A DNA stretch of 39,393 bases. Origin: Aquificota bacterium. GTDB taxonomy: Bacteria > Thermosulfidibacterota > Thermosulfidibacteria > Thermosulfidibacterales > B14-G1. Below are positions 29,351 through 39,354 of the stretch, one piece after another. Positions within the stretch are counted from its first letter, which is position 1. Each line of letters begins with the position of its first letter. The translations under genes and the position numbers were made by a program. Below the pieces are notes generated by a model. It ran no database searches. It was given only the letters and a program-made list of their open reading frames with translations, and was not told where the DNA came from. The stretch spans positions 1 to 39,393 of the forward strand of contig WFSL01000037.1 of NCBI GenBank assembly GCA_015486015.1, in the 5' to 3' direction.

Positions 29351-29382
29351 GGAATTACCAAATTCAAGACCTGACCCCCAAA
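29351..29382 (-). repeat. Tail-motif copy of the composite repeat (GGTCAGGTCTTGAATTTGG)
   Basis: On the minus strand this reads GGTCAGGTCTTGAATTTGG preceded by GGG and followed by TAATTCC. The same motif recurs at 31289-31318, 34159-34193 and 36475-36507 in the same orientation. Here it supplies the stop codon and last residues of the sugar transferase. Confidence 0.75.
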
Positions 29383-30050
29383 GCTCCTTGCACAATCCTG
29401 ATCCCTCTTAGCGCCCTCCTCCATTTCCTGAGCATCTGGGGTTTTCCCCTGTCCTCCCACTTGCCCATAAAAGTGATGAGGAAGGAGAAGAGTATAAGCT
29501 GGACATCCAGGGGAAAAGACTGGTTTTCTATATAGAACAAATCATACCTCAGCTTGTGCCTGGGGGGAGTGTCGTATTTCCCATAAACCTGAGCTACCCC
29601 TGTGAGTCCAGGCTGAACCTGGAATCTCTCCATAAACCCGGGGATCTCCCTGGTGAACTCCTCCACCAGCTCCGGCCTTTCAGGCCTCGGTCCCACAAAG
29701 CTCATATCACCCTTAAAGATGCTCCAGAGCTGAGGCAGCTCGTCCATGGCCGTGGCCCTCAGGACTCTGCCCACCCTGGTCACCCGGTGATCATTCTCGG
29801 AAGCCCAGACCGCTCCAGTGCGTTTTTCCGCATCGGGGATCATGGAACGAAACTTGTAGACCTTAAAAACTCTGCCCCCTTTTCCCACCCTCTCCTGGCT
29901 GTAAAAGACAGGTCCCCCATCCTCCAGCTTTATGGCAGCAGCAATCAACAGCCACAGAGGGAGAGAAGCGATAAGACCAATGCCAGAAAAAAATATGTCA
30001 AAAATGCGCTTCAAAAGTGAAGTATGATCCAGCCCACCCATACACCCCAC
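29364..30050 (-). CDS. Undecaprenyl-phosphate sugar phosphotransferase
   Basis: This bacterial sugar transferase (WbaP/PssY C-terminal domain family) starts a repeat-unit polysaccharide by loading a sugar-1-phosphate onto undecaprenyl phosphate. One N-terminal transmembrane or re-entrant helix (about residues 17-40) is followed by KVYKFRSM, RVGRVLRATAMDELPQLW, FVGPRPERPE and QVQPGLTGVAQV, the catalytic block of the family. There are 228 residues. The extreme C-terminus (GVRS and the stop) is encoded by a repeat copy, so the original end was probably different. It may be the surviving member of an exopolysaccharide locus, with wrecked pieces at 35 kb. Confidence 0.9.
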   Translation of the reverse strand: MGCMGGLDHTSLLKRIFDIFFSGIGLIASLPLWLLIAAAIKLEDGGPVFYSQERVGKGGRVFKVYKFRSMIPDAEKRTGAVWASENDHRVTRVGRVLRATAMDELPQLWSIFKGDMSFVGPRPERPELVEEFTREIPGFMERFQVQPGLTGVAQVYGKYDTPPRHKLRYDLFYIENQSFPLDVQLILFSFLITFMGKWEDRGKPQMLRKWRRALRGIRIVQGALGVRS

Positions 30051-30136: not shown

Positions 30137-30360
30137 ATCTGGTCTATTTGGTCTATCTGGTCGGCATGGGTGAGAAAGGGTTTATACCGTTTATTGGGTT
30201 TGTTGGGTTGAGGCAGGAAAGGCGAGAAATGCGGGAAATGCGAGACAGGCAGGGAAAGCCTCATTTCGCTAACTCCACTGATTTTAGTGATTTCTAATTT
30301 CACACTCAACGCCTATGCCTTCAATCCCTTAATCCTTACTCCTTACTCCTTAATCCTACC
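30137..30360 (+). repeat. Composite repeat copy R1
   Basis: A 9-bp array (GGTCTATTT, GGTCTATCT, GGTCGGCAT) at about 30137-30170 is followed by a TTTGTTGGGTT stretch, then GCGAGAAAT/GCGGGAAAT units to about 30255. A T-rich block of repeated CCTTAATCC/CCTTACT words runs at 30318-30360. No hairpin CCACCTACGAAGTGG is visible in this copy. It is located between the sugar transferase and the first toxin gene. Confidence 0.7.
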
Positions 30361-30491
30361 AATCAGTTCAAGATGGTGCTGGGCGGCTACGGTGAGGGAG
30401 AGATTCCGCTCTGCATACTGCCTGCCCCCTTCTGCCCGTCTCATCCCTCTTTTCCATTTGTAAAAAGGGTGTCTTTGACATCTTTTAGCAC
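30361..30491 (-). other. Gap after mazF with a possible gene remnant
   Basis: The stretch 30051-30491 has no confident gene. On the minus strand an unassigned 33-codon frame (30444 to 30343, beginning MRRAEGGRQYAERN) runs into the T-rich repeat block of R1. It has no ribosome-binding site that I would trust and no recognised family. It may be the tail of a lost gene. Confidence 0.2.
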
Positions 30492-30845
30492 TTAAGCAAA
30501 CTCTAAAACCAGCTTAACCGCCTCTTCCACCTGGGCCATAACTTCCCTCTCCAACGTCCCGATTCGTTCAACAAACCTCCCCTTGGATATGGTGAGCAAC
30601 TGCTCGGCTTTTACATAAGATCTCCTCTTCAATCCATTCCTGGGCGAGGGTTCCACAGGCACGTGAAAGGGAACGGGCTTACCTCTGGTGCTTACTGCAA
30701 CCACTATCGTATTGGGATATCTGGGGTTAGAGCTGGCAGCATCCGTTTGAACGACCAAGGCAGGCCTGAGCCCCTGCTGCTCTGATCCTCTTCCAGGGGA
30801 CCAATCAACCCACCAGATCTCTCCCCGCCGAACATCCCTGCTCAT
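30492..30845 (-). CDS. MazF/PemK-family endoribonuclease toxin
   Basis: This 117-residue toxin of the MazF/PemK family cuts mRNA at short sequence motifs. RRGEIWWVDWSPGRGSEQQGLRPALVVQ is the family N-terminus (arginine and glutamine of the active site loop). VPFHVPVEPS and SYVKAEQLLTISKGRFVERIGTL form the remaining core. The ATG overlaps the antitoxin stop (ATGA), giving the usual antitoxin-first coupling. A truncated second homologue lies at 37345-37410. Intact and probably functional. Confidence 0.88.
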   Translation of the reverse strand: MSRDVRRGEIWWVDWSPGRGSEQQGLRPALVVQTDAASSNPRYPNTIVVAVSTRGKPVPFHVPVEPSPRNGLKRRSYVKAEQLLTISKGRFVERIGTLEREVMAQVEEAVKLVLEFA

Positions 30846-31081
30846 TCCCCAAGCACCACACGTCTCTGAGCCTCAAAGGCATACTTCACATCCACCTCTT
30901 CTGCATCATCAGCCACCAGAGAGAAGCAGTCAAACAACCTTTTTCTTCTCTCTTCCTTCAACTTTTCCTCCAAAAGCTCACGCATGTAGCAGGAGAAGCT
31001 TTTCCCTTTCTCCTTGGCCATTTCTTTCGCCCCTTGGTATATCTCTGGAGGGAGACGGAGAGTTAAAGCCACCTTCTTCAT
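30842..31081 (-). CDS. Ribbon-helix-helix antitoxin of the MazF module
   Basis: This roughly 79-residue antitoxin has an N-terminal ribbon-helix-helix DNA-binding domain (VALTLRLPPEIYQGAKEMAKEKGKS, then SCYMRELLEEKLKEE) and a C-terminal toxin-binding tail. It should neutralise the MazF product and repress the operon. ATG 31081 is preferred over an in-frame GTG at 31096, since GGTGGG precedes it. The promoter/operator lies at 31111-31151. Confidence 0.82.
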   Translation of the reverse strand: MKKVALTLRLPPEIYQGAKEMAKEKGKSFSCYMRELLEEKLKEERRKRLFDCFSLVADDAEEVDVKYAFEAQRRVVLGE

Positions 31082-31110
31082 CTGCACCCACCTCACGATT
31101 CATTTTCTAG

Positions 31111-31159: not shown

Positions 31160-31318
31160 TCTGGTCTATTTTGTCGGGCTGGGCGAGGCAGGCGGGAAAA
31201 GCGCGCAATGCGACCTACGAAGTGGAATAGTAGAAAATAGGGTGCTGGTTTTGAGGGGGTGGCAGGTTCCTTATAAAGGGGCAGGGGAAATTACCAAATT
31301 CAAAATCCGACCCCCAGG
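31160..31318 (+). repeat. Composite repeat copy R2 (with full tail)
   Basis: A short GGTCTATTT piece is followed by GGCGAGGCAGGCGGGAAAA, GCGCGCAATGC, a hairpin unit (31212-31225) and a long tail ending in the tail motif (31289-31318). Positions 31194-31318 match 36383-36507 with about seven differences in 125 by eye. The copy ends 12 bp from the stop codon of the PIN toxin at 31331. Confidence 0.85.
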
Positions 31319-31330
31319 GTATGCCCTCCC

Positions 31331-31732
31331 TCAAGGCACAAGGGAAAAACCCAATACTTCAAAGTCCCTGTCGTACCCGAAAACCCTGTCAATGCCCATC
31401 TGCCTCATTACAGCAAAGCTTGTGCAATCGGTGTAGCTGAAGCGGTGGTCATCATACCTTACAAAGATCTCCCATGCCCTTCTCCTAAGGTTCCTGTCCA
31501 CCTCTACCAGATCAACCACTGAGCTTTTTAGTAACGATTCTCCCAAAATCACAGCCTCCCCATGCCCCACCCTCATCCTCACAATGGTCACCGTCTCATC
31601 GAATACATAATCTGTGGTGACCAGGGGAATCCTCTCTTTCCTCAAATACTCAGCCACTTCCCTGGCCGTCTGGTGATTCTGATCCCTCCTATCGTACAGA
31701 GCAAGCCAGGCACTGGTATCCACAAAGATCAC
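31331..31732 (-). CDS. PIN-domain toxin (VapC family)
   Basis: This 133-residue PIN ribonuclease has the acidic active-site residues in FVDTSAWLALYD (D5), DYVFDETVT (E near 46), SYTDCTSFAVM (D near 102) and FGYDRDFEVLG. Most VapC toxins cleave tRNA or rRNA. The gene overlaps its antitoxin by 4 bp. Its stop lies 12 bp from a repeat copy. It appears complete. Confidence 0.88.
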   Translation of the reverse strand: MIFVDTSAWLALYDRRDQNHQTAREVAEYLRKERIPLVTTDYVFDETVTIVRMRVGHGEAVILGESLLKSSVVDLVEVDRNLRRRAWEIFVRYDDHRFSYTDCTSFAVMRQMGIDRVFGYDRDFEVLGFSLVP

Positions 31733-31974
31733 TTCCCTTCCACCTTGTAAAGGTAGTAATCATGCCTCGATGAGAGATCTCCCCAGGTGCTCTCTGCTTT
31801 GCCAATTAAGCTCCACACCGGATCCTTATCCCAATCCACCCTCTTCTTACGTTCCAGGTATTCCATCACGGCCACCCGCACCACCTCGGCCATACTGACC
31901 CCTTCCTTCTCTGCCTCCTCTTTCACCTTTTGGAGAAGCTCCTCAGGAAAATAAAGCTGAGTCCTTTTGGACAT
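31729..31974 (-). CDS. Ribbon-helix-helix antitoxin of the PIN module
   Basis: About 81 residues. The N-terminal RHH domain (QLYFPEELLQKVKEEAEKEG, then SMAEVVRVAVMEYLERKK) resembles CopG/VapB regulators, and the C-terminal tail (WSLIGKAESTWGDLSSRHDYYLY) is typical of PIN-toxin partners. The start ATG 31974 has GGAGG five bases before; the ATG at 31986 overlaps that ribosome-binding site. A palindromic operator lies just upstream. Confidence 0.85.
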   Translation of the reverse strand: MSKRTQLYFPEELLQKVKEEAEKEGVSMAEVVRVAVMEYLERKKRVDWDKDPVWSLIGKAESTWGDLSSRHDYYLYKVEGK

Positions 31975-31990
31975 TTTCACCTCCATTAGC

Positions 31991-32030
31991 TGTATACAGT
32001 ATACATATACATCATACCCTGATCTGTCAA
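31991..32030 (-). promoter_or_regulatory. Promoter and palindromic operator of the PIN module
   Basis: TGTATAC A GTATACA (31991-32005) is a perfect 7-bp inverted repeat, with another ATATAC half-site next to it. TTGACA on the minus strand (32025-32030) is the -35; the -10 would be within the TATA-rich operator. Repressor binding would block the promoter directly, as expected for RHH antitoxin autoregulation. Confidence 0.65.
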
Positions 32031-32290
32031 CCTATTTGGTCTATTTGGTCTGTTTGGTTGATCTATGTGAGAAAGGCGAAACAAGCGCGAAAAGCAAGAC
32101 AAGCGAGAAAAGTGGGAAAGCGAGAAAGGTGGTAAGGCGGGAAAAGCGCGCAATGCCACCTACGAAGCGGGATAATAGAACATGGGCGAGAAATGCGAGA
32201 CACGCGGGAAAAGCGAGATTAACTTTACCCCTTCAATCCTTAATCCTCTAATCCTTACCCCTACATACACCACCGACTAAGTGGCTCAAA
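32031..32290 (+). repeat. Composite repeat copy R3
   Basis: The array GGTCTATTT/GGTCTGTTT (32031-32065) passes into AAGCGAGAA-like 9-mers (to about 32150), GCGCGCAATGC, a hairpin unit CCACCTACGAAGCGG (32156-32170) and a second round of GCGAGAAAT units. A T-rich tail (TTCAATCCTTAATCC, 32225-32265) and a decayed hairpin near 32276 follow. The 32291-32345 remainder holds diverged GCGCTCC-type repeat sequence. No gene is seen in 31987-32345. Confidence 0.8.
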
Positions 32291-32345
32291 AGCGCTCCAA
32301 TACTGGCTTTAACACCGCGCCTGCGAAGCAGAACAGGTATGGGCC

Positions 32346-32700
32346 TCAGATCTCCTTTAACCCCACTGCTATTTTTAAAGCCTCGTCCAATCTCAACATC
32401 GTATCTTCGGGCAGTACACCGAGTTTCCCAAGGACCTTCTTTTGTCTATAGCCCTTATCTGAAGGAGTAGAACTTTAGATTTCCGGGTTAATCCAGCTTC
32501 AGGGGGTTTTATCAAAACCTCAAAGGGGTAAACCCTATCCGTTTTTTAGTAGTTAGAGCGGCCACGATCACCACAGGGCTATACTTATTTATGATATCTG
32601 GAGAGATTACCACAGCCGGTCTTTTACCAGCCTGCTCAGATCCTTCCACAGGATCCAGCCGAACCCACACAACGTCCCCTCTACCTCTTCTTCCAGGGGA
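32346..32700 (-). pseudogene. Frameshifted MazF-family toxin
   Basis: Three frames together spell a MazF toxin. The N-terminal part is [20 protein letters not shown], then PAVVISPDI to VAALTTKK. A middle part follows after a shift near 32530 ([20 protein letters not shown], then VLLLQIRAIDKRR). A final part comes after a second shift near 32430 (LGKLGVLPEDTMLRLDEAL to the stop at 32346). No good start codon remains at the antitoxin junction. The toxin is therefore almost certainly inactive, unless sequencing errors explain both shifts. Confidence 0.82.
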
Positions 32701-32921
32701 TGAAACTCCTTCTCCACCTCCATATAAACCTCGGCCATCTCCTGGCACCCCTCCAGGATTTCCTTCCTGAGCCTCTCCCTTTCTTTTTCCTCAATCCACC
32801 TTGAAACAAGCTCAGTGATCACCCTACTCCTCTCCCTCTTAGGTACAATCTCCTCAAATCGCCTCCATAAAGGCTCGGTAAGGGAATACGTTCTCTTTAT
32901 AACCTTAACCCTATTTCCCAT
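32607..32921 (-). CDS. Ribbon-helix-helix antitoxin of the decayed MazF module
   Basis: The first 80 or so residues ([20 protein letters not shown], then [16 protein letters not shown], ending EFHPLEEEV) look like an RHH antitoxin of the MazE-like type paired with MazF. ATG 32921 follows AGGAGTAGAGGGC. Such proteins normally stop where mazF begins; here the frame runs on 24 residues inside the toxin region, so the end has probably been altered. TTGATC upstream and two CTGAAAG direct repeats (near 32945-32970) may be control elements. Confidence 0.65.
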
Positions 32922-32980
32922 GCCCTCTACTCCTACAAAACAATACTTTCAGGAAAACCTTTCAGATCAACTTGTGCACG

Positions 32981-33164
32981 GTCCATCTGGCTTATTTGGT
33001 CGGTCTGGTCTATCTAGTCTATCTGGTTTCTTTGGTCTATCTGGTCCGTTTAGTCTATTGGGTTGTTGCGTTGATTGGGTTTGTTGGGTTGGGCGGGAAA
33101 AGCGAGAAAAGCAAGAGCAAGACTATTAGGAAAAGCGGAAAGCCCAGTGCCACCTGAGAAGTGG
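32981..33164 (+). repeat. Composite repeat copy R4 (longest 9-bp array)
   Basis: About sixteen consecutive 9-bp units are readable from 32981: GGTCCATCT, GGCTTATTT, GGTCGGTCT, GGTCTATCT, AGTCTATCT, GGTTTCTTT, GGTCTATCT, GGTCCGTTT and so on. They change through GTTTGTTGG to GAAAAGCGA units without losing the 9-bp phase. A variant hairpin CCACCTGAGAAGTGG (33150-33164) follows. It lies between an antitoxin start and the next toxin's end. Confidence 0.82.
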
Positions 33165-33189
33165 GATAACAGAACTTGCAGGAAGTGAA

Positions 33190-33666
33190 TCACTCACTGC
33201 CCACCGATCCCAATTTCCCCCAGGATTCAGGCCCTGCCACCTCAACCAAACCTCTAAACTTCCTAAAATCCTTCAAATTCTCAGTGCAGAGGATGCCCAA
33301 TCCATTCTCAAGGAGCGTAGCTACCAGCACCACGTCCCAGAACCTTATCCCAGTTATTCCCCTTGAGGTAGAAAGCTCCACCGCCCTTTTAACGATACCA
33401 GGAGTCACAACCAAAACATCAAACAAGCCAGATCCAAGAAGGGAGCCTATCTCCTCTCCGGCCTCTTTAGGATTCAAAGGAGCACATAAACCACCTACCG
33501 ACCGGGTAATAGACACATAGAACTCCCCCAGTACTTGGGTAGAAATGAAGGCCTTGAGTTTGCCTCTTTTTACACCACCAATAAGAGCCAGGGCTTCCGC
33601 ATGAAACCTACGGGTTGTATCGATGCAGGTAACCAAAACATTGGCATCCAGGAAAACCTCAGTCAT
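33190..33666 (-). CDS. PIN-domain toxin (VapC family)
   Basis: This 158-residue PIN ribonuclease has EVFLDANVLV (first aspartate), STQVLGEFYVS (glutamate) and GIRFWDVVLVATLLENG (third aspartate), then LCTENLKDF. It overlaps its antitoxin by 8 bp. Complete in length for the family. Confidence 0.87.
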   Translation of the reverse strand: MTEVFLDANVLVTCIDTTRRFHAEALALIGGVKRGKLKAFISTQVLGEFYVSITRSVGGLCAPLNPKEAGEEIGSLLGSGLFDVLVVTPGIVKRAVELSTSRGITGIRFWDVVLVATLLENGLGILCTENLKDFRKFRGLVEVAGPESWGKLGSVGSE

Positions 33667-33898
33667 ACAGATCCTGGCGGCTGAAATCCTTCACCCCAAT
33701 AGCCCTGGGCTTGGGCCACTCCTCCTTGGCTCTTTCCTTTAGAATGGAAGCCTTCACCAGAGATTTCCTAATAAGATCGGTAACAGTAGTTCCCCTCTTC
33801 TCAGCCTCTTCCATCAAAGCCTTCTTTTCCTCCACGGGGATCCTTATTGTGAGTGTCGTTTTAGGCTCTTTTATTCTTGACCTGGCCCGGGTTTTCAT
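33659..33898 (-). CDS. Ribbon-helix-helix antitoxin of the PIN module
   Basis: This roughly 79-residue antitoxin has a basic N-terminus and an RHH core (TTLTIRIPVEEKKALMEEA, TVTDLIRKSLVKAS). Its C-terminal tail (PKPRAIGVKDFSRQDLYD) suits toxin binding. ATG 33898 has GGAGG five bases upstream. A palindrome at 33919-33932 covers a TATATT -10. Confidence 0.82.
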   Translation of the reverse strand: MKTRARSRIKEPKTTLTIRIPVEEKKALMEEAEKRGTTVTDLIRKSLVKASILKERAKEEWPKPRAIGVKDFSRQDLYD

Positions 33899-33918
33899 AA
33901 ACACCTCCCTGTTTTTGC

Positions 33919-33932
33919 ACTATCAATATAGT
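33919..33932 (-). promoter_or_regulatory. Palindromic operator candidate
   Basis: ACTAT N4 ATAGT is an inverted repeat 21 bp upstream of the antitoxin ATG. On the minus strand it contains TATATT, a likely -10; the -35 is weak. Antitoxin-mediated repression is the simplest reading. Confidence 0.4.
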
Positions 33933-34032
33933 TCAAAATGTCGTCTAAATCTACCCCCCTCTCATGTGATCCACTTACCCAAACCTTATCTCCCACCTGA
34001 AACTGGTTTTGAGTCTGTTGCGTTTATAGCGT

Positions 34033-34193
34033 CATTTACACCACCTACGAAGTGGTGTAAAGGCGCTCCAGTGCTGGGTTTGTTCTACCTACGAGGTGGA
34101 ATAGGTGGGCATTGGGGGGTGTTGGTGGGTTTTGAGGAGGTGGCAGATTCCCTCAAAAGGGGAAATTACCAAATTCAAGATCTGACCCCCAAG
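34033..34193 (+). repeat. Composite repeat copy R5 with double hairpin and tail
   Basis: A 10-bp stem TTTACACCAC (34035-34044) / GTGGTGTAAA (34052-34061) is followed by AAGGCGCTCCAGTGCTGG and a second hairpin unit (34085-34099). A diverged GGTGG-rich middle and the tail motif (34159-34193) follow. The copy ends 54 bp from the stop of the next PIN toxin. Most of 33905-34247 is repeat; no other gene is seen there. Confidence 0.85.
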
Positions 34194-34247
34194 GAGAAAA
34201 CCCGCTTTCCCTTCCTCCACAAGCTCTGAAACGCCTGTCTTGCTCCC

Positions 34248-34634
34248 TTACCAGATGACCTTCACTGAGTATCGGGCGATCCGCGGATCGGCAGTTAGGA
34301 TTGGAAAGTTTTCCAATTGAGCCTGAACGATGAGCAAACGGTCAAAGGGATCTCGATGGTGATCCGGAAGATTGTAAACATGCAGGGCATGGCTCATCTG
34401 GATAGGCAAGCTCTCAATGGCGTTGAGGGCCATCTGCTCGGGAATAAAGCGCTCAGGAGCATCGGGCAACTGTAATCTACCAAGCTTGGCCTTAATCGCT
34501 ATCTCCCAACCGCTGGCAGCGCTGAGGAACAGCTCATTCTCCCCATCACTGATGATCTCGCGAACTTTCCTGGACAGCCGGGGATCGCCGGTAATCCACC
34601 ACAGGAATGTATGGGTATCTAATAGAGCCCTCAT
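34248..34634 (-). CDS. PIN-domain toxin (VapC family, Phd-linked type)
   Basis: This 128-residue PIN ribonuclease of the subtype that pairs with Phd/YefM antitoxins has ALLDTHTFLWWITGD (D5), SGWEIAIKAKLGRL, HHRDPFDRLLIVQAQ (acidic site) and FPILTADPRIARY. The ATG overlaps the antitoxin stop by 4 bp. It looks complete. Confidence 0.9.
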   Translation of the reverse strand: MRALLDTHTFLWWITGDPRLSRKVREIISDGENELFLSAASGWEIAIKAKLGRLQLPDAPERFIPEQMALNAIESLPIQMSHALHVYNLPDHHRDPFDRLLIVQAQLENFPILTADPRIARYSVKVIW

Positions 34635-34867
34635 CCCTCGAATTCCCTGAGAATGGCTTCAGGCAGCGGCGCATCGAAATCAGGGGCGATGGTCACTTTC
34701 CCTTTCGCGCTTCCGGGAAGACGCCGCGCCGGCCGCTCCACCACCGGGACCAGCCTGGCGATGGGCTTACCGGCCTTGGCGATGATGACCTCCTCCCCCT
34801 CTTTCACCCGCGCTAAGAGCTTGGAGAAGTGGGTCTTCGCCTCGTGAATGTTCACCTGCACTGGCAT
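34631..34867 (-). CDS. Phd/YefM-family antitoxin
   Basis: This 78-residue antitoxin has the Phd/YefM fold: VQVNIHEAKTHFSKLLARVK, GEEVIIAKAGKPIARLVP and a flexible C-terminus (FDAPLPEAILREFEG) that binds the toxin. ATG 34867 has GGAGG eight bases upstream; an earlier in-frame ATG adds five residues. It sits under a consensus promoter with two operator palindromes. Confidence 0.9.
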   Translation of the reverse strand: MPVQVNIHEAKTHFSKLLARVKEGEEVIIAKAGKPIARLVPVVERPARRLPGSAKGKVTIAPDFDAPLPEAILREFEG

Positions 34868-34897
34868 TGTATTCACCTCCATCTACTGCCACTTTTC

Positions 34898-34926
34898 ATT
34901 ATAGACTAAGTCACGGACTAAGTCAA
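34898..34926 (-). promoter_or_regulatory. Consensus promoter with double Phd-type operator
   Basis: On the minus strand TTGACT (34921-34926), a 17-bp spacer and TATAAT (34898-34903) form a near-perfect sigma70 promoter. Two copies of the palindrome GACT-A-AGTC (34904-34912 and 34916-34924), 12 bp apart, fill the spacer. Two adjacent palindromes are the known pattern for Phd-type antitoxin repression. Confidence 0.7.
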
Positions 34927-34971
34927 ATTAGCCCCTCCGGCTCTCCTTCCCCGCTGCTTCTTAGCGCTCAT

Positions 34972-35445
34972 TCATAGTAAATAAATGTTCTTATATTTGC
35001 CTTGGATGTCCTTGGTGGCATTCCGCGTATCGAAGATCAGCTTCGCATGCTTGGCGATAAAGTCTCAGTTGTAGTTAGAATGATCTGTAAGGACAAGCAC
35101 ACAATCCTGTACAGTCAGTAACCCCTCGTTCAACTCTTGAGACCGCCATTCTTGGTTCAGATATTCCAACCGCGGCACATAAGAATCATTATAAGCCACT
35201 CCTGCACCTTTCTGCAGGAGTAGCCCGATGATGTCCAGCGCCGGCGATTCACGGATATCGTTAACATCGCGTTTATAAGCCACGCCCAGAATTAGGATCT
35301 TAGCGCCCTTGAGCGGCTTACCCTGTTGATTTAGAAGGTCAGCTACTCGCTCCACCACATAAGCAGGCATCTGGCTGTTGACCTTGCCTGCAAGCTCGAT
35401 AAAGCTGGTATCGGCCTGATAAGTCTTGGCCTTCTGGTCTCCATG
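34972..35445 (-). pseudogene. Nucleotide-sugar 6-dehydrogenase, C-terminal remnant
   Basis: Only the C-terminal third of a UDP-sugar 6-dehydrogenase (WbpA/WecC-like) is present. It reads KAKTYQADTSFIELAGKVNS, PAYVVERVADLLNQQGKPLK and ILILGVAYKRDVNDIRESP. A TGA at 35065-35067 interrupts the frame, which then continues as DFIAKHAKLIFDTRNATKDI to a stop at 34972. The catalytic N-terminal domains are missing, and the 5' end is joined to a deacetylase fragment. It is inactive. Confidence 0.85.
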
Positions 35446-35600
35446 AGTCTCTCTATCCTTTTCAAGCTCCCATACCTTTTATTCACCGAAACCGAGGCGG
35501 GCATGAGGCTGGAGTCGTACTGGTAACCCACCTCCTTTATGATCTCCACAGCCCAGGGGGTGATGGAAAAGCTGGGCGCCCTATAACTCCACTCCACTCC
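35440..35600 (-). pseudogene. Polysaccharide deacetylase fragment
   Basis: About 50 codons (EWSYRAPSFSITPWAVEIIK, EVGYQYDSSLMPASV, KRYGSLKRIERL) match the NodB-type deacetylases of exopolysaccharide loci, where RAPSFSI is a hallmark. Both ends are lost: the 5' side meets the YgiT gene region and the 3' side fuses, out of frame, to the dehydrogenase remnant near 35440. Confidence 0.78.
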
Positions 35601-35623
35601 GTAAGCGGAAAAGAGGCCACAAC

Positions 35624-35866
35624 TCAGGATCCCACTCCAGTTGCAGACGCATACCGGAGAACCTCTAACTCTGAGCCGCTCCGAATGGACGCATCGGCCC
35701 TTTTCAGAAGTTCATCGGTCACTTCGTCCGATAGGTAGTACTCCCCGCAGTTCTCACAAACCTCGGCTGGAACCCCTTTGAAAATCACAGTAGCATCTCC
35801 CCTGGTAAGGGTAACTGTCACCCAACCAGGCTTCGTTTCCCCCTGCTTGCAGATAACGCATTTCAT
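35624..35866 (-). CDS. YgiT-type zinc-finger antitoxin
   Basis: This 80-residue protein has two C-x2-C pairs (CVICKQGETKPG and VCENCGEYYL) forming the YgiT/MqsA-like zinc domain, and YYLSDEVTDELLKRAD typical of the family. It follows the DUF4258 gene with a 4-bp overlap. The C-terminus (ATGVGS) lies at the junction with decayed polysaccharide sequence and may not be original. The helix-turn-helix half of MqsA is absent, as in most YgiT-type partners. Confidence 0.82.
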   Translation of the reverse strand: MKCVICKQGETKPGWVTVTLTRGDATVIFKGVPAEVCENCGEYYLSDEVTDELLKRADASIRSGSELEVLRYASATGVGS

Positions 35867-36150
35867 AACTCCCTCCTCTTCCTAAAACCGTCCTCCCATA
35901 AATCCGGATCCGGTGAGTATACCGTAACCACAATGCAAAGCCTGCTTTCGCTCTCAACAGCCACCACTACATGAAGAGGCTCATTGTCGACCCAGCCCAA
36001 CATCAAAAAACTGGGATATGGCTTATCCTCCAAATATTCTGCAATTACCTCACCTACCAGCACGACTCTTACAACATCACCTCCCACAATACCCCTCTCA
36101 AACACCCTTCTTATAGCGTGAGAACTAAACCTAATCTCTTTACAATCCAT
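35863..36150 (-). CDS. DUF4258 protein, probable RNase-type toxin
   Basis: This 95-residue DUF4258 protein has IRFSSHAIRRVFERGI (the SxHAxxRxxxR pattern), then GEVIAEYLEDKPYPSFLMLG, VDNEPLHVVVAV and a final VVTVYSPDPDLWEDGFRKR. DUF4258 genes followed by YgiT-type zinc fingers form presumed toxin-antitoxin pairs related in fold to MqsR/RelE-like toxins. The order, toxin first, is opposite to the other modules here and like mqsRA. Function is inferred. Confidence 0.8.
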   Translation of the reverse strand: MDCKEIRFSSHAIRRVFERGIVGGDVVRVVLVGEVIAEYLEDKPYPSFLMLGWVDNEPLHVVVAVESESRLCIVVTVYSPDPDLWEDGFRKRREL

Positions 36151-36233
36151 TTAACTTATCCACCCTGCAAAGCCCAGGTCTTCGTTATTTAACCAGGCTT
36201 CTTCGCCACTTTCTGACCAATTTGTTAGGATAC

Positions 36234-36507
36234 TTCACCTACAAAGTAGTGTAAAGGAACTCGTACACTATAATAACAGGCTAATTGTGCCAAATACACC
36301 TATCGAACTAAAAACAGGGATAGGTGATTTATTGCATCTATCTGGTTGATCTGGTTAAAACAGGCGAGAAAGGTGGTAAGGTGGGAAAAGCGCGCAATAC
36401 CACCTACGAAGTGGGATAGTAGAAAATAGGGTGCTGGTTTTGAGGGGGTGGCAGGTTCCTTATAAAGGGGCAGGGGAAATTACCAAATTCAAGACCTGAC
36501 CCCCAAG
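36234..36507 (+). repeat. Composite repeat copy R6 (with full tail)
   Basis: A decayed hairpin (36234-36256) is followed by a short TATCTGGTTGATCTGGTT array (36336-36355), GCGAGAAAG units, GCGCGCAATAC, a perfect hairpin unit (36400-36414) and the long tail with the tail motif (36475-36507). Positions 36383-36507 are nearly identical to 31194-31318. The stretch 36151-36595 contains no gene that I can support. Confidence 0.85.
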
Positions 36508-36595
36508 GCATTTACACCTCCAGTAAAGTGAGCCAAAGTCTGGATCGGTTTCTTATAGACATTTTCGTGTGCAGTAACCCAAAACTCTTCAGAGA

Positions 36596-37027
36596 TTATC
36601 CCCCCTGAAGAACCTCCTGGGGGGATATAACCCTAAGGTCCCTGAAGTACTCGCGATAAAACCCTCTATCCCTCGTCAGCAGACAGTCACACTGCACCAG
36701 TGCATGTCCACCTATCAGAAAATCGGCCGCTATCCGCCTCTTCCCCTGCCCCCGTCCCCTCTCGAGGTACTCAGCCCAACATTTAGCGGCCATCAAGGCT
36801 GCCTCACGGCTTATCGCCAAAAACTGGATCCCCATCCGCTCCAACGTGTTAACAAGAACATCCTGAACCCCAGCATAGGCCACCGACACCTCAGCCCATA
36901 CAACCTCGCAAGCCACCACCACTCCCTCACGCAAGCTCCTTTTCAAGGCTTCCTTGGACATGAGCCCGTAAACCGGATCTGGCTCAAGGATGTCTATTAA
37001 TACGTTTGTATCAACGGCGGTAATCAC
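36596..37027 (-). CDS. PIN-domain toxin (VapC family, AbrB-linked)
   Basis: This 143-residue PIN ribonuclease has TAVDTNVLIDILEPD (D5), CEVVWAEVSVAYAG (glutamate), GKRRIAADFLIGGHALVQ (aspartate) and LLTRDRGFYREYF. This type commonly pairs with AbrB/MazE-fold antitoxins, as here. The GTG start at 37027 follows the antitoxin stop directly. Complete. Confidence 0.89.
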   Translation of the reverse strand: MITAVDTNVLIDILEPDPVYGLMSKEALKRSLREGVVVACEVVWAEVSVAYAGVQDVLVNTLERMGIQFLAISREAALMAAKCWAEYLERGRGQGKRRIAADFLIGGHALVQCDCLLTRDRGFYREYFRDLRVISPQEVLQGG

Positions 37028-37246
37028 CTATCCTTCCCTGAGCTCCCTCAGGATATCATCCGTACGCCTCCTGCGGCCAAACTTTCCATAAGCCTGATCT
37101 ACAGGATCCATATTATCCACCTTCACCGCTATCAGCCGCCCCCCTTCCTCTACAAACTCCAGAACCGTTCCAGGACGGATACCCAACCGATCCCGCAGTG
37201 CCTTGGGTATGGTAACCTGCCCCCGTTCAGCCACTTTTACTCTCAT
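37028..37246 (-). CDS. AbrB/SpoVT-type antitoxin
   Basis: This 72-residue antitoxin has the swapped-hairpin AbrB domain VAERGQVTIPKALRDRLGIR, PGTVLEFVEEGGRLIAVK. Its C-terminal tail (DQAYGKFGRRRRTDDILREL) contacts the toxin. ATG 37246 has AAGGAGG six bases upstream; the longer frame upstream has no family similarity. A promoter with a palindrome lies at 37266-37294. Confidence 0.9.
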   Translation of the reverse strand: MRVKVAERGQVTIPKALRDRLGIRPGTVLEFVEEGGRLIAVKVDNMDPVDQAYGKFGRRRRTDDILRELREG

Positions 37247-37265
37247 GACAACCTCCTTGGTATGT

Positions 37266-37294
37266 ATTCTGAAGCATGAATTCATACCTGTCAA
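37266..37294 (-). promoter_or_regulatory. Promoter and palindrome of the AbrB-PIN module
   Basis: On the minus strand TTGACA (37289-37294), a 17-bp spacer and CAGAAT (37266-37271) form a promoter. The spacer holds the perfect palindrome ATGAATTCAT (37276-37285), and GGTATG/CATACC half-sites lie to either side. It suits antitoxin autoregulation. Confidence 0.5.
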
Positions 37295-37344
37295 GATTGC
37301 ATACAAACATCCTCCAACTTGATGGCATTGGCTATGAGCAACCG

Positions 37345-37410
37345 CTCTAACCCCCTTCCTGGAAACCGGTCAACCTGCCAGATTTCACCTCGCTGCACGC
37401 TCCCGGTCAT
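37345..37410 (-). pseudogene. MazF N-terminal remnant
   Basis: A start codon at 37410 opens MTGSVQRGEIWQVDRFPGRG, which matches the N-terminus of the intact MazF at 30845 (RRGEIWWVDWSPGRG). After about 22 codons the similarity ends and the frame runs into the promoter region of the AbrB-PIN module. The rest of the toxin and its antitoxin are gone. Confidence 0.7.
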
Positions 37411-37478
37411 TCCTATGGAATAGGAAGAGACTCACTGCCACTGTTCCCCTACTTCCACTCACCCATTTTACCGGTTAA

Positions 37479-37618
37479 CTATTTGGTCCATTTGGTCTAT
37501 CTGGTCTTTCTGGTCCGTCTTGTCTATCTGGTCGATATGGGCGAGAAAAGCACACAGTTCCACCTACGAAGTGGTTCAAAGGCGCTCCAGTTCTGAGTTT
37601 GAACCACCTACGAAGTGG
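37479..37618 (+). repeat. Composite repeat copy R7 with double hairpin
   Basis: The 9-bp array (GGTCCATTT, GGTCTATCT, GGTCTTTCT, GGTCCGTCT, TGTCTATCT, 37486-37535) is followed by GGGCGAGAAAAGC, hairpin units at 37560-37574 and 37604-37618, and between them AAAGGCGCTCCAGTTCTG. No long tail follows. It separates the MazF remnant from hepT. Confidence 0.83.
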
Positions 37619-37702
37619 AATTTAGCTTGGGTAAATCTCAAAAACCCGGAACAACCTAAGGTCAATATGGGAAACTGCCAAATCCAATGGTAAACTCCAG
37701 GG

Positions 37703-38176
37703 TTACTCATCACCCTGTGATGCATCTCTGCTACGCGTATAGTCAGCAGGTAAGCCAAGGAAGCAGCCGACCTCCTTAAGGAATCGATCGAGATCCGAAA
37801 GGTTCTCTCGTAGGATCCGATGGACCTCCTCATCATCTGCTTCCCAGTAAAGGTGGACCAGGCGATTACGGAACTTTGCCATACGAATGAGCTGGGGGAG
37901 GAAATCGGAGGAGAAAGCCCCAGCTTCTCTTAAAACGCGAAATGTGTCGGCATAGTCTTCCGGTGCCCGAAAGCGGTTCTTGCTTATAAGGTGATGACAA
38001 AGATCGATTGCTGCCTCGATGGCTACGATGAAGTGATATTTGGCACTACCGACCTTGTGAGGATCCTGAAGGAATTCCTTTCGTGGGAGAGCTTGCAGTT
38101 CAGCGAGTCGAGCACGAGCCTTGAGAATCTCCGAGATAAAGCGGCGGACCCGTTCCTCATCGTACGCCACTGCCAA
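37703..38176 (-). CDS. hepT: HepT-like RNase toxin
   Basis: This roughly 157-residue, four-helix HEPN protein has the catalytic R-x4-H-x-Y motif RNRLVHLY near residue 114 and the typical YHFIVAIEAAIDLCHHLI helix. HepT is an RNase held in check when its MNT partner polyAMPylates the tyrosine of this motif. The TTG at 38176, with GGAGG about nine bases upstream, is the likely start, since the open frame further upstream lies inside the mnt gene and has no similarity. It overlaps the MNT gene by 20 bp. Confidence 0.87.
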   Translation of the reverse strand: MAVAYDEERVRRFISEILKARARLAELQALPRKEFLQDPHKVGSAKYHFIVAIEAAIDLCHHLISKNRFRAPEDYADTFRVLREAGAFSSDFLPQLIRMAKFRNRLVHLYWEADDEEVHRILRENLSDLDRFLKEVGCFLGLPADYTRSRDASQGDE

Positions 38177-38639
38177 GGCCCAACACCTCCATAAGATAAG
38201 CTTGCTGAAAGGGCGCAAAGTCAAAGTATTGAGAAAAGGCCCGTGTCTCAAAATCAACTCTGAGGGTCTCCTCCCGAGAGAAAAGCAACAGCCCTTCTCG
38301 GATCACCCTATAGCGAAAGGCAAGAGGCGCTCGGTTGAGAAGTCGAACATCCACCGGAAGGAGGTATCCGGCTTCTTCGAGGACTTGCTCCAACTCCACC
38401 TCCAACCTAAGTTCATAGCTCAAACTCGAGGTTCCCTCTGCGCTCGAATAGACAGCGAGATCAACGTCGTGAAAGGGCCCACCGGTGAGGAACGAACCAT
38501 GCACATAAGCGAAGGCTAAGGTACTCTCCTGAAGCAGCCTCTCCCGCAAGGCTGTGAGAACAGCCTCTTGCTCCTCAGGCCCAAAAGGTAAATGGAGCTT
38601 CCGCTCTTCCAGATCGTGCTTATGCTTATAGGTTCGCAT
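38157..38639 (-). CDS. mntA: MNT-type nucleotidyltransferase antitoxin
   Basis: This 160-residue minimal nucleotidyltransferase is partner of HepT. The active-site motif is GSFLTGGPFHDVDLAVY, with aspartates binding metal and ATP; the spacer between GS and DVD is 8 residues, shorter than the 10 of many MNT proteins but a known variant. Family members transfer AMP from ATP to the toxin. A small palindrome AACTT-ATA-AAGTT (38655-38667) lies 16 bp upstream of the start. Confidence 0.87.
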   Translation of the reverse strand: MRTYKHKHDLEERKLHLPFGPEEQEAVLTALRERLLQESTLAFAYVHGSFLTGGPFHDVDLAVYSSAEGTSSLSYELRLEVELEQVLEEAGYLLPVDVRLLNRAPLAFRYRVIREGLLLFSREETLRVDFETRAFSQYFDFAPFQQAYLMEVLGLGSGVR

Positions 38640-38811
38640 AAAAATACCATAGTCAACTTATAAAGTTTATGCAAGATTTCCCCGGCATTGTGCCAGACTT
38701 AAACGATTAAACCGGAATCATCTGTCTATCTGCCCACGAAAAATCCCACGTATACCTCAGTGCGGAACAACGCAGAAAATTGACTCCACTATCTCCCCTC
38801 ATTTCTTTCAT

Positions 38812-38875
38812 TTACACCACCTACGAAGTGGTGCAAAGGCGCTCCAGCGCTGGGTTTGGACCACCTACGAAGTGG
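38812..38875 (+). repeat. Composite repeat copy R8 (double hairpin only)
   Basis: TTTACACCAC/GTGGTGCAAA encloses the first hairpin unit (38817-38831). AGGCGCTCCAGCGCTGGGTT, itself able to pair, follows, then a second unit (38861-38875). It resembles 34033-34099 closely. Its right end lies 14 bp from the premature stop of the truncated PIN gene. Upstream, 38640-38811 holds no gene. Confidence 0.85.
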
Positions 38876-38888
38876 AACTGAGGGCTTT

Positions 38889-38954
38889 TCACTCTTCGGA
38901 TCTCTCCTGATCTAATAACCTCTCCAGCCAAACATTTGTGTCAACCAAATACAC
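38889..38954 (-). pseudogene. PIN-domain toxin cut off after 21 codons
   Basis: GTG 38954 starts (V)YLVDTNVWLERLLDQERSEE, the N-terminal strand of a PIN toxin with its first aspartate (VDTN). A TGA at 38889-38891 ends it and repeat copy R8 begins 14 bp further on; no later PIN motif follows. It starts one base after the DUF2281 antitoxin stop, as expected for a toxin-antitoxin pair. Confidence 0.78.
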
Positions 38955-38955
38955 C

Positions 38956-39165
38956 TCAATCGCCTCGCCATTCCAGTGCCTTCTTCTGTAATTCAAGTGA
39001 GGAATATCGAGCCTTATATTTGCTCAAAGCCCCAGCCCAATCCTGACGCATTATATATCCCTCTTTTTTCTTCCTTCTCTCTAAGAGAAAGCGAGCAAAA
39101 TCTTCCACTTCTCGCTGAAGTTCAGGAGGCAACTGTTCAATAAGTTCTTTCAAGGCAGCCACCAT
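38956..39165 (-). CDS. DUF2281-type antitoxin
   Basis: This 69-residue protein of the DUF2281/VapB-like type reads ALKELIEQLPPELQREVEDF, ARFLLERRKKK, with a C-terminal tail (QDWAGALSKYKARYSSLELQ) of the sort found before PIN toxins. GGGGG lies just before ATG 39165. Its toxin partner is truncated, so the antitoxin is orphaned. Confidence 0.8.
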   Translation of the reverse strand: MVAALKELIEQLPPELQREVEDFARFLLERRKKKEGYIMRQDWAGALSKYKARYSSLELQKKALEWRGD

Positions 39166-39228
39166 AACCCCCTTACGCTTTCTATGCTATTTCACAATAA
39201 CATAAAGCCACGGTAATGGGCAAAGGAC

Positions 39229-39354
39229 ATCTGGTCGGTCGGGTAAATCTGGGCGAGAAATGCAAGACGCGCGAGAAAAGCGAGATTAACTTCACCCCTT
39301 CAATCCTTAATCCTCTATTCCCCTACCTCTTTACATATGCCACCTACAAAGTGG
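39229..39354 (+). repeat. Composite repeat copy R9
   Basis: A short TCTGGTCGG array passes into GGGCGAGAAAT and GCGAGAAAA units. The second tail type (AGATTAACTTCACCCC, TTCAATCCTTAATCC, 39282-39320) and a hairpin variant CCACCTACAAAGTGG (39340-39354) follow. Its tail matches 32214-32245 closely. The window ends 39 bp later with nothing recognisable. Confidence 0.8.

Follow-up and report, generated by a model that had tools for sequence, protein, structure and literature searches.

A MazF toxin-gene remnant with a sugar-transferase-like tail upstream of an AbrB-PIN module in a repeat-rich toxin-antitoxin region

Introduction

How does the beginning of a MazF toxin gene come to stand upstream of a complete toxin-antitoxin (TA) module of another type? 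The question is raised by a locus in the window, i.e., the whole stretch of 39,393 nucleotides analysed here (Aquificota bacterium, GenBank assembly GCA_015486015.1, contig WFSL01000037.1), for which a preliminary description proposed a MazF remnant left as the scar of one TA unit being replaced by another. Decay of chromosomal TA loci is known, as related for ccdO157 and the hok-sok copies in the relevant part of PMC2654758.

The MazF-like stub

The comparison involves the stub and the intact mazEF pair of the same window:

37342..37413, minus strand: MazF-like stub, comprising 3 nt before the ATG and codons 1-23 (71% over 70 nt to intact mazF; rank 3 of 1384 with a MazF profile)
30492..30845, minus strand: intact MazF toxin gene, used as reference (PF02452, E 1.9e-31)
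30842..31096, minus strand: presumed CopG/RHH-like antitoxin of the intact MazF, lying ahead of mazF with an overlap (only sub-cut-off Pfam matches)

Read directly, the minus strand from 37410 to 37294 is MTGSVQRGEIWQVDRFPGRGLERLLIANAIKLEDVCMQS, followed by the stop TGA at 37293-37291. Codons 1-23, from the ATG at 37410 to 37342, follow the MazF reading frame and agree with the N-terminus of the intact MazF (30845-30492) in 14 of 23 residues (tblastn E 1.8e-5), and the nucleotide alignment covers 70 nt at 71.4% identity (blastn E 4.7e-8, in a database of the window plus 14 fetched loci). The homology begins 3 nt ahead of the ATG and sinks to background level beyond about codon 23. Taken in 60-nt steps, identity to the intact mazEF is 35% just ahead of the frame, 68% at its beginning and 37% beyond that. 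No dinucleotide shuffle equalled the ungapped match of 48/69 nt, whether in 5000 trials against mazF or in 1000 against the full window. In a search with a MazF profile derived from 14 relatives outside the window, drawn from genomes of several phyla, the stub comes third among 1384 six-frame window segments (E 0.0066), behind the intact MazF and the frameshifted copy at 32.5 kb only; the similarity to MazF noticed in the preliminary description thus persists in a profile search. That description had a start codon and about 20 codons matching MazF before an abrupt stop, which agrees with codons 1-23, but the match occupies 37342-37413 on the minus strand and is followed by a probable scrap of a second gene.

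The stub resembles the MazF/PemK family (PF02452) over codons 1-23, which take in the start codon and the RGEIW..VD..PGRG stretch, and matches the family by our own profile; unlike family members, it is without about four fifths of the domain (complete at ~109 positions) and without an antitoxin gene. A Pfam PemK_toxin scan of the 39-residue peptide, which spans about a fifth of the domain, returned no match at E<=1, the stub probably being too short for the curated model. No antitoxin gene lies directly upstream, where the 60 nt hold no trace of mazE (35% to the mazE end, which is background) and the DNA is a spacer common with the same-genus genome G001. On sequence evidence, the stub is a genuine MazF pseudogene remnant; no function is visible for it, and it is apparently dead scrap, an ordinary product of TA decay.

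Further MazF copies occur in the window and in the order. A second window MazF (32432-32748) is split over two reading frames, its profile match ending at position 86/109, and locus L034 (G005:C6, 6876-7300) holds a mazEF of the same type in which mazE is kept and approximately the first 78 mazF codons are missing. A PemK family search found 16 matching stretches in 5/9 genomes of the order; no MazF gene among the order loci compared matches the stub with an E-value below 1.6.

Divergence of the stub

The stub differs from the window mazF at 4, 7 and 10 first, second and third codon positions, respectively, with changed codons in 8/14 conserved residues. The corresponding values are (i) 6/6/15 and 9/14 for the MazF of L051 (Desulfohalobiaceae), (ii) 5/9/13 and 7/12 for that of L058, and (iii) 6/8/13 and 9/12 for that of L053. 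From this codon-position pattern, together with the changed codons in conserved residues, much of the divergence seems to be older than the truncation. As far as a sample of 23 codons indicates, the stub likely stems from a paralogue that was still functional while it diverged, rather than from a recent copy of the neighbouring mazF.

The sugar-transferase-like tail

The frame opened by the stub continues into a second segment, listed here with its nearest counterpart in the window:

37291..37410, minus strand: chimeric reading frame of 39 codons (direct reading and scan), its stop TGA inside the -35-like TTGACA
37308..37343, minus strand: scrap resembling a sugar transferase, continuing the stub's reading frame (LLIANAIKLED vs LLIAAAIKLED; 27/36 nt)
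29364..30050, minus strand: sugar-transferase gene that directly follows the intact mazEF on the same strand (PF02397, E 1.1e-65)

The 11 codons after stub codon 23 read LLIANAIKLED in the same frame, and the nearest sequence in the window is LLIAAAIKLED of the sugar transferase (30050-29364), with 10/11 residues in common. The corresponding E-values are weak (tblastn 0.19, blastn 0.022), and a transferase profile from relatives does not detect the tail (0.8 bits, E 22). In 5000 shuffles compared with the transferase gene and 1000 compared with the full window, a nucleotide match of 27/36 never arose; a further 4000 dinucleotide shuffles of the tail produced it once, at some place in the window. 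Out of the 77272 real window 36-mers, only the overlapping ones at 37307-37310 have at least 26 matches to the transferase gene; the next independent place among the 18616 from the TA-rich island has 25, and none of the 58656 from elsewhere has 25. A sparser control (3102 segments, every sixth base) leaves the tail ahead by a single match, 25 vs 24. At the residue level, 0/2000 shuffles reach the score of the tail against the transferase alone, and 1/60 scored as high as the tail against all 77 window ORFs of at least 100 aa (43 vs 42).

Judged from these alignments and controls, a sugar-transferase gene is, with good confidence, the likely origin of the tail. In the intact copy, 825 bp separate the positions corresponding to the two sides of the junction (30777 and 29951), so that a single deletion in a similar neighbourhood would yield the chimera.

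The AbrB-PIN neighbour

Downstream of the chimeric frame, on the same strand, the following features are found:

37266..37294, minus strand: promoter-like TTGACA-17-CAGAAT ahead of the AbrB gene (consensus scan, 10/12)
37028..37246, minus strand: AbrB/MazE-type antitoxin gene, ATG at 37246 (PF04014, E 8.6e-12)
36596..37027, minus strand: PIN toxin gene (PF01850, E 1.8e-8)

The two genes, an AbrB-type antitoxin followed by a PIN toxin and both complete by Pfam, constitute an AbrB-PIN (VapBC-type) module; the complete module (37246-37028 and 37027-36596) and the repeats around it lie where the preliminary description placed them. One promoter-like site was found, compared with 0.9 in shuffles, and the -35-like box of the AbrB gene is only suggestive. 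AbrB homologues in the order are distant, the best match having E 1.8e-10 with 37% identity over 69 residues and the highest identity being 55% over 42.

Repeats and the start-codon-side break

The surroundings of the stub are rich in repeats:

37418..37472, no strand assigned: spacer segment common with the same-genus contig G001:C42 (89.5% over 57 columns, E 2e-13)
37480..37533, plus strand: 9-nt tandem repeat block of the TATTTGGTC type
37560..37618, plus strand: repB hairpin pair (CCACCTACGAAGTGG), 44 nt apart, perhaps the repeat R7 of the preliminary description (repeat scan)
36478..36503, minus strand: repA repeat behind the PIN gene; in three genomes a Y1 transposase gene has copies of it on either side

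The window and the end of G001:C42 part at 37418, 4 bases from the stub homology. Beyond this point G001:C42 enters a hairpin-like repeat, TACTTCGCCGGTGG, and then an RHH-PIN module, whereas the window has four bases, which are unexplained, and then the stub. By eye, TACTTCGCCGGTGG differs in 3/14 places from CACTTCGTAGGTGG, the other strand of repB. Since the start-codon-side break falls within a few bases of the relative's hairpin-like repeat, it may well be due to recombination or slippage at such repeats. An alignment of breakpoints with repeat copies, envisaged in the preliminary description, is seen on the start-codon side in G001, but no repB copy lies at the stub's own edge in the window, the hairpin being present in the relative G001 only.

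Counted with at most 1 mismatch, repB (CCACCTACGAAGTGG) has 10 sites in the genome of the window, 9 of them in this island, and 11 in the same-family genome G002, where 10 are packed into 4.2 kb of contig C39; it is present in 5/9 genomes of the order, and pairs with a 44-nt spacing are found repeatedly in the window as well as in G001 and G003. The palindromic repB is concentrated in TA-rich stretches (window 31211-39354, G002:C39:5355-9559), and in G002:C39 several copies lie on both sides of a Y1-like ORF (Pfam Y1_Tnp E 2.2e-7, profile positions 41-119). The other family, repA, is a 26-nt repeat (GGGGTCAGGTCTTGAATTTGGTAATT) with window copies at 29353, 31289, 34164 and 36478; inverted copies stand on both sides of the Y1 transposase gene in G000:C22, G002:C22 and G003:C53, i.e., at 3/8 Y1 loci scanned, whereas the remaining five scanned genes showed no such double flanking. 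Degenerate 9-nt tandem repeats (TATYTGGTC-type) also adjoin TA modules, at 37480-37533, 32980-33082 and 30137-30190, with similar ones in G001, G002 and G005.

In the arrangement of RAYT transposases, REP copies are inverted on both sides of the transposase gene, according to the portion of PMC2817692 that treats it. Within the features given in the portions of PMC2817692 and PMC3733652 used for comparison, repA resembles REP elements with RAYT transposases in its inverted copies on both sides of a Y1 gene (3/8 loci), and repB resembles RAYT-linked REP in being a short palindromic element that often comes in pairs and has GTAG on one of its strands; it is unlike them in its low copy number and local clustering.

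A parallel PIN stub and the island around it

At 1.5 kb from the MazF stub, the window holds another truncated toxin gene:

38892..38954, minus strand: 21-codon remnant of a PIN toxin gene, with a repB pair 17 nt away (alignment to the intact G002:C39 module ends at 38893)
38956..39165, minus strand: whole DUF2281 gene, presumed antitoxin (PF10047, E 7.5e-15)
38817..38875, plus strand: repB hairpin pair beside the PIN stub (repeat scan)

This DUF2281-PIN module (38892-39165) is whole in G002:C39, where the PIN toxin matches PF01850 over positions 1-117/120 (E 9.6e-13). Broken toxins recur in the region and its relatives. In G002 the DUF2281-PIN module follows the transferase at a distance of ~1.1 kb, with another module in between, but in the window it lies 8.8 kb upstream of that gene. 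Contig G002:C39 carries the transferase and then TA modules plus the Y1-like ORF amid repB copies; in G001:C115, a 6-kb contig, the transferase is found among polysaccharide-type genes (named by eye) with one nucleotidyltransferase-like ORF, and no PIN or MazF gene is evident on that contig. As modules change place between genomes, a chromosomal integron cassette array was considered and rejected: 0/9 genomes exceed the TIGR02249 cut-off, and sub-cut-off matches occur in 9/9, as in 14/14 controls.

Gene pieces of other kinds are scattered in the same island. A UDP-glucose dehydrogenase piece (35065-35370, PF03720) lies beside a probable polysaccharide deacetylase piece within 34980-35600; the deacetylase piece, identified by eye and with no Pfam match, is also found among TA modules in G001:C42. 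A glycosyltransferase tail (by eye) at 30383-30449 is common with a scrap at G002:C39:8122-8187.

Search for an earlier state

Neither an intact mazEF nor a close AbrB was found at the stub's place among 60 genomes searched by DNA and 9 genomes of the order searched with PemK and AbrB protein, the PIN gene being covered by the DNA search alone. The DNA of 36500-37560 matches 4/60 genomes, its own included, and all 22 matches beyond its own place correspond to the spacer 37418-37472 or to repeat sequence. An intermediate with an uncut mazF-transferase neighbourhood was likewise found in none of the 60 genomes by DNA search.

Discussion

The stub is probably a dead 5' mazF remnant forming a deletion chimera with a sugar-transferase scrap, left when an old neighbourhood was cut down. 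The course of events would be as follows: (i) a MazF paralogue, having diverged from the 30.5-kb copy under protein-level constraint, would have stood upstream of a sugar-transferase gene, in the same gene order as the present mazEF and sugar transferase at 31.1-29.4 kb; (ii) the antitoxin of the paralogue would have been lost; (iii) a deletion would have fused mazF, cut after codon 23, to a stretch from within the transferase gene, with the reading frame kept; and (iv) a second break would have brought the scrap beside the AbrB-PIN promoter region. A toxin is a cost to its host, so that its loss would be tolerated and perhaps favoured.

If the MazF stub alone were real, the tail would be random sequence resembling a transferase by chance, as its weak E-values (0.19 for protein, 0.022 for DNA), the blindness of the transferase profile and the one residue shuffle in 60 that matches its score against all ORFs would allow; this is nevertheless unlikely, for no residue shuffle out of 2000 scores as high when the transferase is the only target, 1/4000 dinucleotide shuffles reaches 27/36 nt anywhere in the window, at least 26 matches to the transferase occur only at 37307-37310 among 77272 real 36-mers, and the matched gene directly follows the intact mazEF and runs in the same direction. 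The same tail bears on the proposal of the preliminary description that a mazEF unit at this place was displaced by the AbrB-PIN unit. A 5' mazF stub does precede a complete TA module of another type in the same orientation, TA modules do occupy different places in relatives (DUF2281-PIN in G002 and the window), and of that proposal the MazF remnant and one edge aligned with a relative's repeat hold good; but the stub does not abut the AbrB-PIN module, the transferase-like scrap between them speaking against a direct swap, the 60 nt on the other side show no trace of mazE, and the earlier state appears in none of the relatives searched, which together make a replacement scar improbable.

A functional role for the frame, as an upstream frame or leader peptide of the AbrB-PIN operon with a captured MazF start, is very improbable. 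Its 39 open codons, with a stop overlapping the -35-like box of the AbrB gene, would be in keeping with such a role, but a frame ending at the putative promoter lies outside a transcript starting there, and by direct reading AGGA abuts the ATG, which under the usual spacing rule leaves too little distance for a ribosome site. Nor did a conserved antitoxin leader, the other possibility raised in the preliminary description, emerge from six AbrB-like loci of relatives, which gave no convincing related peptide (best E 0.077 over 11 residues).

Read as a chimera left by deletion, the stub is comparable to the decayed ccdO157 and hok-sok loci, within what the part of PMC2654758 on these loci describes, in being a chromosomal TA locus broken by mutation or rearrangement; it is unlike them in its MazF-type toxin, its apparent fusion to a sugar-transferase scrap and its repeat-rich region. 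A wider idea, that palindromic repeats reshape the TA-rich region and repeatedly cut toxin genes 21-23 codons after the start (MazF and PIN stubs) while antitoxins and other modules survive, is doubtful at best; if true, repeat-driven cutting would be a way of disarming TA modules. The region holding the TA modules also holds polysaccharide-gene pieces. The stub documents the death of a toxin gene by deletion, as the preferred reading would have it, and alone it changes no current view; with a second toxin stub whose whole counterpart is present in a relative, the region becomes a small test bed for repeat-linked TA decay.
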